A DNA stretch of 64,000 bases, taken from assembly GCF_002117105.1 (NCBI RefSeq), contig NZ_CP019343.1, positions 3,224,001-3,288,000 of the forward strand, in the 5' to 3' direction. This document shows positions 21,712 through 26,055 of the stretch, in pieces. Source of the DNA: Oceanicoccus sagamiensis (GTDB lineage: Bacteria; Pseudomonadota; Gammaproteobacteria; Pseudomonadales; Dasaniaceae). Both the position numbers and the translations under genes were made by a program. The notes under the pieces were generated by a model. It was not told the DNA's origin, did not search any database, and was given only the letters and a program-made list of their open reading frames with translations. Each line of letters starts with the position of its first letter. Within the stretch, counting starts at the first letter, position 1.

Positions 21712-22641
21712 TTGTCTAATAATTCAGCAGGCATGCAGTACCGCGTGCGTATCAATCGCTCATTAGAGTTTATCTTCGATAATTTGCATAGGCCCATATC
21801 CCTTGCGGAAGCTGCTGAGAAAAGTCATTTCTCGAGTTTTCATTTTCATCGTATCTTTTCCGCGTATATGGGTGAAACGCTCAATGATTTCGTCACTAGA
21901 ATTCGGCTTGAGCGTTCCGCTAACTGGCTGATTATTCGCCCTCTGGCGACGGTGACAGAGATTGCGCTGGAGGCGGGCTTTTCTTCCTCGGCGAACTTTT
22001 CTAAAGCATTCAAACTACATTTTGGTTTGACCCCTACGCAAATTCGGCGCGCCTCTCCGGCACAACGTGTTACTGCCGGTCGTATCAGAGAGAAGTACGG
22101 TAAAGACTTTAACCTTAAACAGCTCAATCAAATCAGGGAACCTAATAGCTCAGCTAATGAACGGCTTGCCGCATCCCCTGAGATACGCATTGAGCAGCTA
22201 GCATCGATGAGCGCCTATACCCCCTCTGAATTTGTGGGTTATAACGTTGATGAAGTAGGGCGGGCGTGGGATAAGTTGAAAGCGTTGGCAGGGTCCTTAG
22301 GTGTGCCTGTGAGCCAACAGCGTCACTTTTCCATTTGTAAGGATAATCCATTAATTACACCCTTAGAGAAATGCCGCTATGAGGCATTACTGGTATTAGA
22401 GCAGCCCAGAGGTGTCTCGGATGAATTCAAGTGCACCTCCATTCCCGCTGGCCGCTATGCTGTGGCGAAGTATGTCGGTGAGCTCTCAGGTTTGTTCGAT
22501 TTTTATATGGCAATTTATCTGCATTGGTTACCTGATAGTGGTTATGAACCTGATGATTACCCATTGATGGAGCGTTATTTGAATGACGCGCGTGTTGACG
22601 GTTACGCTGAGATTGAGGTTTATATTAAACTCATCGAGTGA
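21712..22641 (+). CDS. AraC-family regulator with C-terminal GyrI-like ligand domain
   Basis: A 309-residue protein with two AraC helix-turn-helix motifs at the N-terminus (about 8-110; SLAEAAEKSHFSSFHFHRIFSAYMGETLNDFVTRIRLERSA is in this region, then ITEIALEAGFSS-like and the PTQIRR end) and a GyrI-like/effector-binding domain (about 150-309). Such SoxS/Rob-like regulators usually sense small hydrophobic or cationic molecules and activate stress or efflux genes. The TTG at 21712 has GAGAG upstream; an ATG at 21733 is an alternative start. It lies directly before the multicopper oxidase fusion on the same strand and shares a 15-bp motif with its promoter. Confidence 0.85.
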   Translation: MSNNSAGMQYRVRINRSLEFIFDNLHRPISLAEAAEKSHFSSFHFHRIFSAYMGETLNDFVTRIRLERSANWLIIRPLATVTEIALEAGFSSSANFSKAFKLHFGLTPTQIRRASPAQRVTAGRIREKYGKDFNLKQLNQIREPNSSANERLAASPEIRIEQLASMSAYTPSEFVGYNVDEVGRAWDKLKALAGSLGVPVSQQRHFSICKDNPLITPLEKCRYEALLVLEQPRGVSDEFKCTSIPAGRYAVAKYVGELSGLFDFYMAIYLHWLPDSGYEPDDYPLMERYLNDARVDGYAEIEVYIKLIE

Positions 22642-22734: not shown

Positions 22735-25512
22735 ATGTTTTTTCCTCGACTGATTTCCCTGGTTGTTTGTGGTGTGCTTTTTGGGATGAGCGCAAATGTT
22801 CATGCAGCTGTTGTTAGGCTTTCAGAAAGTCATATCTCGGTGTTAAATGGTGATACGTTTACTCTGCAGCTAATAGGGCAGGGCTTTGATTCTGCTACGC
22901 TTGATGGTGGAGGCGTGACCCTCAGCTATGATCCCACGCTTATTCATGTTCAGAGCGTTGCGATCAATACCATTGACTGGGAATTTTTCTCGACCACAGG
23001 CTCTATTGATAATGACGTCGGTAGAGTAAGCGGGATGAGTTTTAACTCGTTTCAAAACCGTACCGGTGATTTACTATTCGCTACCATCGAGCTGGCGGCG
23101 GTTGGGGGCGGTGATTCGCTGCTCGTTCTATCAGACGACCTGTTAAACCCTTTTGCCTCTGGTGGTTCTCTTTATAGCGATGTAAATTTCGCGAACACGG
23201 TAGTGCTATCGGTAACCGAAGTACCCGTTCCTTCAGCAGGTTTTTTATTGTTATCAGCGCTGAGTGCAATGAGTGCACTCACAGCAGCAAGACGCCGGCG
23301 GCTGGTTGCCGGGTTGTCGATGTTTGCGGTTTCCTCAACGGCGTTAGCGTGGACGGGCAGTGTTTCGCAAGCGGTTGATGTTAATCCTGACCCTGATATT
23401 TTTGAGACCACACTGGTGGTTGAGCAGACGGTGATGCCTGTCAAAGGTACGGGGACAACGCCCGCTACTTTATATACTTTTAACGGTATGTTTCCCGGGC
23501 CGGAAATAAAGGTTAAAACCGGGGACCGGGTCATTATTCATATGATCAATAATTTACCGGTAGGGGAGGGGATGTCGATTCATTCCCACGGTGTTGAGCT
23601 TAGCAATAATATGGATGGTACCCAAATCACGCAGGACCCGGTTCCACCGGGTAGTCGTTTTACTTATGACTACATTGTTCCTCGCCCGGGTTCTTTTTGG
23701 TATCACCCTCACATACGAACCAGTAATAAAACTTTCAAGGGACTGTACGGTCCACTAACCGTTTCTGACCCTAACGAAGATATATTAAGAGAGCAGGGCA
23801 TATTACCTGGTGATGCCTATACCCACACGCTGGTGCTTTCCGATATAACACTTTGCGAGGATGTAACCGACAGCGACTTGAATAGTATCAAGGTGGGTTG
23901 TGTTGGGCAGTCGGCGGGCCATGTGCCGAACATTCAGCCTGAATTTGACTGTGTCAGCACCTTCCCGAACTGTGTCGTGTTTGAGGGTAAGACGGTATTG
24001 TCTAACGGTCGGGCTGTTGAGGCTGGAGATGTGCTTGATGTGCCCGCAAATCAGCCGGTGCGCTTTCGAGTGATCAATTCTTCGCTTAATCGTTATTTCA
24101 GATTAGTCCAGCCCGTCAGTGGTCCGTTAATTCGCATTGGCGGTGAGGGGGGGCTGTTGAATAATGCAGTATTAGACCCTGTTGCACTTCCAGCGCCTGA
24201 CAACGGTAAACTCTCTGGCGATATATTACTAGCACCGTCTGAGCGTGCTGATTTTATCTTTATACCGCAGACGTCTGATGTAGGCAGTGTAATAACCATA
24301 CTTAGTGACTTACCCAGCCCTGCTAATGTTAATCGTGGTTTTTCCCTCAATGGTAATTTAACGTCCGCGCCAGTGTTACAGATTAATGTGGGCGCAGCGA
24401 TAACACCGGACTCGAAGATACATGCGGGCGACCCGCTACTGGCCCATAGCTCAGTGAATAAACCTTTAGAGGACTTGAGTAAAATTCCTGCTACAGCTTT
24501 AGGTTCGCTACTAGACCCTGCACTTTTTGGCCGGGATGGTTCAGCTAATTCAACCATTGCCTTGACTGCCAGTGGTGGCATTGAGCCGGGGATTGATGGG
24601 GTGCGAGGACGGTTTATGAACATGTCGGGTTATCAACATGTGCCGAATATTGCCACTACTCGCTATGCTGTATTAGGAGATGTGTTGGAGCTGCAAGTCA
24701 CTAACAGCACGCCGGTAGATCACCCGTTTCATATGCACGGTAATTCATTTCAGTTAATGAGTCGTAGTGATGGCCGGGATTTTCCGGTGGAATTTATCGA
24801 TACAGTAAATATTCCCTCTAACCATTCCGTGGTGCTGCGTGTTCGTTTGGAGGATAAATTACAGATTGTTGACAATGTATTGAAACCTTACGGTGGCTTA
24901 GGTCGCTGGTTATTCCATTGTCATATTACCACTCATGCGGAGTTAGGAATGATTTCCGAGTTAGTGGTCGTGGCGCCTCCGGAAGCGCTGTGTGCCGATG
25001 TTGAGGTCCTCACAGATGGTTTTGGTAGCCCGTTGATGGCGTCGATTGATGGCGGTACCTTCGACCCTGATAGTGATGCTATCAGTATTTCACAGTCGCC
25101 AGCTGGGCCTTATTTTCCCGGTATTACAGACGTTACCTTAACGGCGACAGATGAAATGGGTTTATCTAACTCCTGTGTCGGCACTGTTAGCAATTTTATT
25201 GATGAGGATGGTGATGGCATTGCCAACCCGTTGGATAACTGCCAGATTCACGCTAATGGTAGTTTGGTTCCTGATGCGGGTGGCAACATTCAGCGGGATA
25301 GTGACGGAGATGGCTATGGTAATCGCTGTGATGGCGACCTGAATAATGATGGCATGGTAAACGTTTTGGATTTGGGTTTGTTTAAGCATGTTTTTTTTAG
25401 CGCTGACCCGCACGCGGATATTAATGGCGATGGTATCGTCAATGTATTGGATCTTGGTTTGTTTAAAGAGCTGTTTTTTAAGGTGCCAGGGCCCTCTGGT
25501 TTTTTTGACTAA
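22735..25512 (+). CDS. Chimeric secreted protein: cohesin-like domain, PEP-CTERM-like segment, multicopper oxidase, dockerin
   Basis: A 925-residue protein. Residues 1-24 form a signal peptide. About 25-160 is a cohesin-like domain (GGGVTLSYDPTLIHVQSV). Residues 163-189 look like a PEP-CTERM sorting tail (VPVPSAGFLLLSALSA, hydrophobic helix, RRRR), normally found only at a C-terminus. Directly overlapping it, residues 179-205 read as a Tat-like signal (RRRRLVAG, hydrophobic stretch, TALA/WT). Then comes a full multicopper oxidase with all copper motifs: H283/H285 (HSHG), H324/H326 (WYHPH), H663/H666/H668 (HPFHMH) and HCH 728-730 with H734 and M739. The tail has Asp-rich calcium-type repeats (about 823-867) and a two-repeat dockerin (D868-D879 and D895-D906). 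An in-frame ATG at 23269 could start the oxidase separately. Function inferred: exported copper oxidase tethered through cohesin-dockerin contacts. Confidence 0.85.
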   Translation: MFFPRLISLVVCGVLFGMSANVHAAVVRLSESHISVLNGDTFTLQLIGQGFDSATLDGGGVTLSYDPTLIHVQSVAINTIDWEFFSTTGSIDNDVGRVSGMSFNSFQNRTGDLLFATIELAAVGGGDSLLVLSDDLLNPFASGGSLYSDVNFANTVVLSVTEVPVPSAGFLLLSALSAMSALTAARRRRLVAGLSMFAVSSTALAWTGSVSQAVDVNPDPDIFETTLVVEQTVMPVKGTGTTPATLYTFNGMFPGPEIKVKTGDRVIIHMINNLPVGEGMSIHSHGVELSNNMDGTQITQDPVPPGSRFTYDYIVPRPGSFWYHPHIRTSNKTFKGLYGPLTVSDPNEDILREQGILPGDAYTHTLVLSDITLCEDVTDSDLNSIKVGCVGQSAGHVPNIQPEFDCVSTFPNCVVFEGKTVLSNGRAVEAGDVLDVPANQPVRFRVINSSLNRYFRLVQPVSGPLIRIGGEGGLLNNAVLDPVALPAPDNGKLSGDILLAPSERADFIFIPQTSDVGSVITILSDLPSPANVNRGFSLNGNLTSAPVLQINVGAAITPDSKIHAGDPLLAHSSVNKPLEDLSKIPATALGSLLDPALFGRDGSANSTIALTASGGIEPGIDGVRGRFMNMSGYQHVPNIATTRYAVLGDVLELQVTNSTPVDHPFHMHGNSFQLMSRSDGRDFPVEFIDTVNIPSNHSVVLRVRLEDKLQIVDNVLKPYGGLGRWLFHCHITTHAELGMISELVVVAPPEALCADVEVLTDGFGSPLMASIDGGTFDPDSDAISISQSPAGPYFPGITDVTLTATDEMGLSNSCVGTVSNFIDEDGDGIANPLDNCQIHANGSLVPDAGGNIQRDSDGDGYGNRCDGDLNNDGMVNVLDLGLFKHVFFSADPHADINGDGIVNVLDLGLFKELFFKVPGPSGFFD

Positions 25513-25554: not shown

Positions 25555-26055
25555 ATGACTATGAAAAAAATATCACCGGCATTTAAGTATTTATTTGTTA
25601 CGGTATTACTTGCTTATACAACTAACAGTATTGCAGAGGGGGTTATTTCGATAAGCCCTGGGAAGATAAAACAGCAGGTAGGGGAACTATTTACAATAGA
25701 GGTGTTAAGCAGCGAGGTTGCCGCCATGGATGGTGGTGCATTTGGCATTCGATTTAACCCCAATGTTGTCACCGTTCACAGTGTTGAGGTCAATCGAGAT
25801 GTATGGGGTTTTAGTAGTAGCAATGGTGTGATTGATAATCAGAAGGGGAGGGTAACTGATATTGCTTTCAGCAGCTATACGCCCGCAGGCAGTGCAGTAA
25901 TTGCGGTTGTAACGTTGCAAGCATTGAAAAAGGGCCGCTCTAGATTGACTCTGACGCCGTCCAGGTTGTCACCTTTTGCCTCTGAAGCTGATGTGCTCGA
26001 CATGCAGTTCCAAAAAGGCGTGGTGCGAGTCATTCCGGCGAAGGCAGGAATCTAG
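25555..26055 (+). CDS. Secreted cohesin-like domain protein, C-terminus replaced by a repeat
   Basis: A 166-residue protein: signal peptide (SIAEG, about 1-28) and one cohesin-like domain similar to that at the start of the preceding gene (shared pattern: MDGGAFGIRFNPNVVTVHSV, then WGFSSSNGVIDNQKGRVTDIAFSSY and LSPFAS). Where the paralogue continues into a PEP-CTERM-like tail, this one ends in VIPAKAGI, the translation of an ATTCC-type intergenic palindrome, so an anchor may have been lost. It starts 42 bp after the oxidase gene and is probably co-transcribed. It is a natural candidate partner for the oxidase dockerin. The ATG at 25561 is an alternative start. Confidence 0.78.
   Translation: MTMKKISPAFKYLFVTVLLAYTTNSIAEGVISISPGKIKQQVGELFTIEVLSSEVAAMDGGAFGIRFNPNVVTVHSVEVNRDVWGFSSSNGVIDNQKGRVTDIAFSSYTPAGSAVIAVVTLQALKKGRSRLTLTPSRLSPFASEADVLDMQFQKGVVRVIPAKAGI

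Follow-up and report, generated by a model that had tools for sequence, protein, structure and literature searches.

One open frame of Oceanicoccus sagamiensis joins a cohesin-like domain, an internal PEP-CTERM tail and a complete multicopper oxidase ending in a dockerin, all within a single chain of 925 aa. Judged from its unfused counterparts, this gene very probably arose by in-frame fusion of a cohesin-PEP gene with a gene for secreted dockerin-bearing cargo, two genes that are usually direct neighbours. The best reading of the genomes surveyed is that an exosortase-anchored cohesin and a dockerin-bearing exoprotein form a recurrent, little-described pair. A cohesin-dockerin display with an exosortase anchor, together with a fused precursor, would be what is new here, the fusion having been found in a single genome only.

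Within the window (the whole stretch of DNA analysed, 64,000 nucleotides), the gene reads as one uninterrupted frame on the forward strand (Table 1). Its coordinates and domain order are exactly those of an initial annotation of the sequence, which had listed a signal peptide, a cohesin-like domain, a PEP-CTERM tail, another signal, a complete oxidase and a two-repeat dockerin. A gene for an AraC/GyrI-like regulator lies immediately upstream on the same strand (window 21712-22641), and might regulate the fused gene.

Table 1. Coordinates of the fused gene, its parts, the neighbouring cohesin gene and the second locus (window positions unless a locus is named)
Feature	Position	Strand	Basis
Fused gene: cohesin - PEP-CTERM - signal-like segment - multicopper oxidase - TSP3 - dockerin	22735..25512	+	ORF reading, Pfam
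First signal peptide, residues 1-24	22735..22806	+	Sequence reading, hydrophobicity
Cohesin-like domain, residues 25-158	22807..23208	+	P0002 similarity, family profile vs PDB, Foldseek
Internal PEP-CTERM tail, VPVP type, residues 163-189, VPVPSAGFLLLSALSAMSALTAARRRR	23221..23301	+	TIGR02595 16.3 bits, cut-off 16
Second signal-peptide-like segment RRRRLVAGLSMFAVSSTALA, residues 186-205	23290..23349	+	Sequence reading; hydrophobic peak at residue 190
Multicopper oxidase, residues 236-746, copper motifs complete	23440..24972	+	PF07732, PF07731; laccases in PDB
Thrombospondin type 3 (TSP3) calcium repeats	25198..25329	+	PF02412 36.9 bits
Dockerin type I, two near-identical F-hand repeats, end PGPSGFFD	25333..25509	+	PF00404 25.2-27.1 bits, cut-off 22.9
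Second cohesin protein P0002, 166 aa, signal peptide, 'cohA' type	25555..26055	+	PF00963 26.5 bits
Second cohesin-dockerin locus of the same genome	L054 6138-15564, C1 about 3842137-3851563		

It is highly improbable that an error of sequencing or assembly joined two separate genes. The PEP-CTERM tail and the signal abut directly, leaving no remnant of an intergenic region for a one-base error to bridge, and codon usage favours the frame in 30 of 31 windows. There is a tie at residues 181-210, which are odd in composition because the helix and the arginines are encoded there. Single-base errors or decay do occur in this genome, as shown by the broken frame of a cohesin gene (cohA) at its second locus, and the contig seems to have untrimmed ends; these two points speak for an artefact.

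The cohesin call of the initial annotation is upheld by an indirect route. Scanned alone against profiles, the fused domain has no Pfam match of its own. It shares 31% identity (E 1e-21) with P0002, encoded by a gene that starts 42 bases 3' of the fused one, and P0002 passes the PF00963 cut-off of 24.1 bits. When the family profile was compared with the PDB, the nine best matches were all cellulosomal cohesins (best E 1.8e-6). An AlphaFold model of moderate confidence (pLDDT 65) has a Ruminococcus cohesin as its best Foldseek match, with a probability of 1.00 but an E-value of 0.008. On the P0002 identity, the family profile and this moderate-confidence fold, the fused domain is assigned to the cohesins. 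P0002 itself has a signal peptide and, like its closest relatives, no PEP-CTERM tail. In the tree it groups with the cohA protein of the second locus and with that of a relative, G281 (support 0.97). This grouping of three cohA proteins points to two types of cohesin, anchored and unanchored, which seem to travel together as companions. The initial annotation had spoken of cohesin domains in the plural, and there is indeed a second cohesin gene next door, but its product lacks the PEP-CTERM tail.

The end of the P0002 gene calls for separate comment. A REP-like sequence, TCATTCCGGCGAAGGCAGGAATC, lies at its extreme end (window 26030-26052), and no second copy of this stretch was found in the genome. 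That P0002 is a PEP-CTERM cohesin cut off by a REP element (its end reads VIPAKAGI) was considered and rejected as the cause of the missing tail, since the cohA protein of G281 ends alike (VIPMKGVR) without a tail and the two group together. Just 5' of the same gene, a terminator-like hairpin followed by T (window 25485-25500) coincides with the PGPSG codons at the end of the dockerin.

The tail that follows the fused cohesin passes its PEP-CTERM model by a small margin, and with other bounds scores only 12.6-15.1 bits. It keeps the VP.P-type motif (VPVP), the helix and the basic cluster, and its hydrophobic stretch is slightly longer than that of terminal tails. Its position is as odd as the initial annotation had supposed. 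In this genome 30 PEP-CTERM matches were examined. Of these, 29 are C-terminal and end 22-28 residues past the start of the VP.P motif. That of the fused gene is the only internal one: at least 527 residues separate the start of the tail from the end of the locus read, and 736 residues come after it in the full frame. Of the marks of a PEP-CTERM substrate, the profile match and an exosortase are present, and a tail at the C-terminus is absent. In relatives, about 150 matches were listed from 58 genomes, and tail position was read in the five of these that lie in frames longer than 400 aa; all five are terminal. Haft et al. (2006; PMC1569441) likewise placed the tail near the C-terminus "virtually without exception," and suspected that the rare non-terminal cases are non-functional.

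The search for exosortases proposed in the initial annotation found two in the genome, one XrtA-like and one XrtD-like (538 aa); the latter scores 309 bits over the part scanned, the cut-off of 400 being for the whole protein. The terminal tails of the genome are of two types, VPEP and VPVPAAAWLFGSA. The fused tail is of the VPVP type, and the related cohesin of the second locus passes the VPLPA-CTERM model. An uncut precursor appears rather unlikely. In such a precursor, sorting by the tail would have been lost, and the two helices would form a hairpin holding cohesin and oxidase in one membrane-bound chain, with the dockerin bound to the cohesin of its own chain, to that of a molecule nearby, or to P0002. 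The weak score, the longer hydrophobic stretch, the internal position and the suspected non-functionality of non-terminal tails (Haft et al., 2006; PMC1569441) all fit this picture, but VPVP, helix and basic cluster have been kept at the fusion point, an XrtD-like enzyme is present, and a good signal peptidase site (ALA) comes next.

Two further observations concern PEP-CTERM loci elsewhere in the genome. A 213-aa protein (L003 1342-1983) combines dockerin-like repeats with its own C-terminal PEP-CTERM tail, and can be described as an anchored dockerin. PEP-CTERM matches with equal scores also lie at both contig ends at a constant offset (G000:C1 3529-4014 and 4468287-4468772), and this repetition suggests an untrimmed circular overlap of about 7 kb in the assembly.

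The segment beyond the tail resembles a signal peptide, and an RRRR motif is common to it and to the basic end of the PEP-CTERM tail. The initial annotation had described this segment as Tat-like. Its signal-like character stands but the Tat type is not confirmed: RRRRLV fits the SRRxFLK-type motif loosely, and the close relatives of the oxidase carry ordinary Sec-type or lipoprotein signals without a twin-arginine motif. Two proteins might also be made without any cutting, if an extra internal start at ATG 23269 (residue 179) yielded MSALTAARRRRLVAGLSMFAVSSTALA... as the ordinary signal peptide of the oxidase. This in-frame ATG stands exactly where a signal peptide would be expected to begin, and the oxidases of unfused relatives do have their own start. 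However, no Shine-Dalgarno-like sequence is seen 5' of 23269, and the upstream frame, which has no stop, still continues into the oxidase, making an internal start unlikely.

The oxidase matches PF07732 (5.5e-34) and PF07731 (2.2e-19), the Pfam matches lying at residues 236-347 and 634-746, and all of its copper motifs are readable (HSHG, HPH, HPFHMHG and HCHITTHAELGM). A search of the PDB leads to laccases, and the scores are far below the TIGR01480 (CopA) and CueO cut-offs. The closest relatives, in G357 (36% identity) and G509 (35%), each begin with their own signal peptide. Among these nearest relatives, one ends in a C-terminal transmembrane helix with an RRRR tail (L021), and another has a lipobox, LVGC (L022). 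Since the nearest oxidases look tethered by other means, surface tethering is a plausible shared need. This suggests that the group may work bound to the envelope, with the dockerin as one of several tethering solutions.

The dockerin call is borne out by PF00404, which gives 25.2 bits for the region alone, 27.1 bits in the genome scan and 22.8 bits on the whole chain, 0.1 under the cut-off. Both calcium loops, DLNNDGMVNVLD and DINGDGIVNVLD, are intact in the two near-identical repeats (residues 867-914). A single-sequence structure model of this domain is unusable (pLDDT 32).

The reading of the gene as a fusion of an anchored-cohesin gene with an exported-oxidase gene, made in the initial annotation, finds its counterpart in unfused pairs, both in the same genome and in relatives. 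The second locus of O. sagamiensis encodes a 2792-aa dockerin protein, followed by a frame-broken, tail-less cohA and, last, by a cohesin of 181 aa that ends in a VPVP tail. The dockerin of the 2792-aa protein is near-identical to the fused one and ends nearly as it does (...SLDLGLFKQLFFKSPGPSGLVQ). G281 (L055) has the same order of dockerin protein, cohA and cohB, with both cohesin genes intact. In G419, the nearest counterpart of the fused cohesin (47% identity) belongs to a cohesin-PEP gene directly upstream of a separate dockerin gene: the order is that of the fusion, but in two genes. As to the second locus itself, the 2792-aa protein has three nearly identical long beta-helix-like repeats in addition to its dockerin, and the frame break in cohA may be decay or a sequencing error.

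Three partly overlapping whole-genome samplings (class 369, order 391, phylum 398) show how often cohesin and dockerin are neighbours. The cohesin family is present in 23 other genomes, and a profile-level dockerin is adjacent to the cohesin in 14 of them (G281, G419, G356, G238, G196, G245, G460, G485, G096, G563, G512, G856, G1009 and G1057; in G096 it is two genes away). In three more genomes (G127, G577 and G652) the protein next to the cohesin has at its end a dockerin-like repeat with Cys residues, which falls below the Pfam dockerin cut-off when tested on G652, and in G549 a protein of this Cys type is encoded a few genes from the cohesin. The cohesin match is without an adjacent dockerin in 5-6 of the 23: none was seen beside it in G232 (at a contig edge), G243, G266, G526 and G032 (partly masked), and weak matches in these dockerin-less genomes may be PEP-CTERM rather than cohesin. 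The other PEP-CTERM loci examined in the O. sagamiensis genome served as a control, and not one of them shows a matching dockerin at a distance of up to 1.5 kb. The dockerin profile used here was built from the two dockerins of that genome; a profile with neighbours included served for some further loci.

The cargo attached to these dockerins varies, and includes subtilases, LVIVD beta-propellers, DUF11 proteins, beta-helix proteins and oxidases. Because of this variety, the system is not built around a copper oxidase, as had been proposed at first; its constant part is the anchored cohesin with a dockerin. Nor is it a cellulosome-like arrangement: the cohesins being single, it has neither a scaffoldin nor a multi-enzyme cellulosome. 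Cellulose-binding modules and glycoside hydrolase cargo are absent from both cohesin loci. It is very unlikely that the dockerin is not bound by these cohesins, serving as a calcium-stabilised adhesion or secretion tail in a neighbourhood that reflects some other cause. Non-cellulosomal dockerins of archaea and bacteria do have unclear partners (PMC5244752, PMC9012536), but here the tight adjacency is repeated over many families, and cohesin and dockerin stay constant as the cargo changes.

Some of the surveyed loci deserve mention in their own right. In G460 (L062 4457-13000), a cohesin-PEP gene sits amid several dockerin genes, one of them for a subtilase, and two multicopper-oxidase-like genes. 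Cohesin-PEP genes adjoin Cys-repeat proteins at L086 1-2199, L087 7610-10124, L088 5753-8267 and L128 6457-9582. The Cys repeat, DGDG.IT..DAR.C...CT...CA, is possibly a second dockerin type with cohesins of its own.

Besides the fused gene, no cohesin-PEP in a long frame was found in about 1100 genome searches of partly overlapping samples, and the fused gene is absent from all seven congeners examined. Scanning named genomes with the whole protein gave a single weak match of the TSP3/dockerin kind, from a MAG of the Hydrogenedentota. In G346 (L024 5678-7708), an unrelated PEP-CTERM protein continues in frame through a second signal into a multicopper oxidase, within which the contig stops. 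This may be a second, unrelated case of a PEP-CTERM/signal/oxidase frame; no second copy of it was found in the genomes of three relatives.

A working model can be proposed for the fused gene, and as a whole (export, two cuts, and a cohesin-dockerin hold at the surface) it has about an even chance of being right. The first signal peptide would export the cohesin. The PEP-CTERM helix would then halt in the inner membrane, leaving RRRR on the cytoplasmic side, and the hydrophobic stretch that follows would act as a second signal carrying the oxidase outward, so that the two helices form a hairpin. An exosortase, probably the XrtD-like one, which suits VPVP-type tails, would cut at VPVP and anchor the cohesin, while signal peptidase would cut after ALA or SQA, releasing the oxidase-dockerin. 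Cohesin and dockerin would thus be produced in equal number, and calcium-dependent binding between them would hold the oxidase on the cell surface. P0002, the separate second cohesin, may act as a competitor or as a partner in solution. That the chain is a surface "polyprotein," whose internal tail and signal are cut by exosortase and signal peptidase and whose two products, released in equal number, rejoin at the surface, is put forward tentatively, as a reading somewhat more doubtful than probable.

If the polyprotein reading is true, the gene represents a new type of exosortase substrate within a largely undescribed Gram-negative system of cohesin-dockerin display. Exosortase substrates are mostly of unknown use, and the recurring partner gene offers a concrete job for some of them: the display of exoproteins that carry a dockerin tag, in bacteria remote from any cellulosome. 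By tying one cohesin to one dockerin per molecule, the fused gene makes this pairing testable, and it raises the question of whether exosortases can also act on a tail in an internal position. If they can, nature would have provided an equal-ratio design of anchor and cargo that could be useful in surface display.

The initial annotation did not recognise this arrangement as a described system. No paper found in the open-access literature searched joins PEP-CTERM with cohesin, although an earlier mention of paired genes is possible in subscription papers, and none joins PEP-CTERM with polyprotein. Exosortase and dockerin occur together in one open-access review, on methanotrophic archaea, which leaves their role open. 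The system is nevertheless a variant of a known one, cohesin-dockerin display. It shares with the cellulosomal pairs (PF00404, PF00963) the domain families, the duplicated calcium F-hands and, as proposed, the anchoring of an exported enzyme to a surface protein. It differs from them in its Gram-negative host, its single cohesins, the lack of a scaffoldin or carbohydrate-binding module, an exosortase tail as anchor instead of SLH or sortase, a copper oxidase as cargo, and the presence of cohesin and dockerin in one frame. With PEP-CTERM/exosortase sorting (XrtA, XrtD/VPLPA-CTERM) it has in common the VPVP motif, the hydrophobic helix, the basic cluster and both exosortase types in the genome, but the fused tail is internal and is directly continued by a second signal and an enzyme. 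Like exported multicopper oxidases (laccase, CopA/CueO type), the enzyme has all copper-binding motifs and both PF07732 and PF07731; unlike them, it bears a C-terminal dockerin, with a cohesin and a membrane tail in front. The non-cellulosomal cohesins and dockerins (Peer et al., 2009, as cited in PMC5244752 and PMC9012536) are also single domains outside cellulose degradation, and ANME archaea, which provide examples, also have exosortase-family sorting. Compared with what these two papers relay of that work, the present cohesins and dockerins lie next to each other or in one frame, and it is the cohesin that bears the sorting tail.
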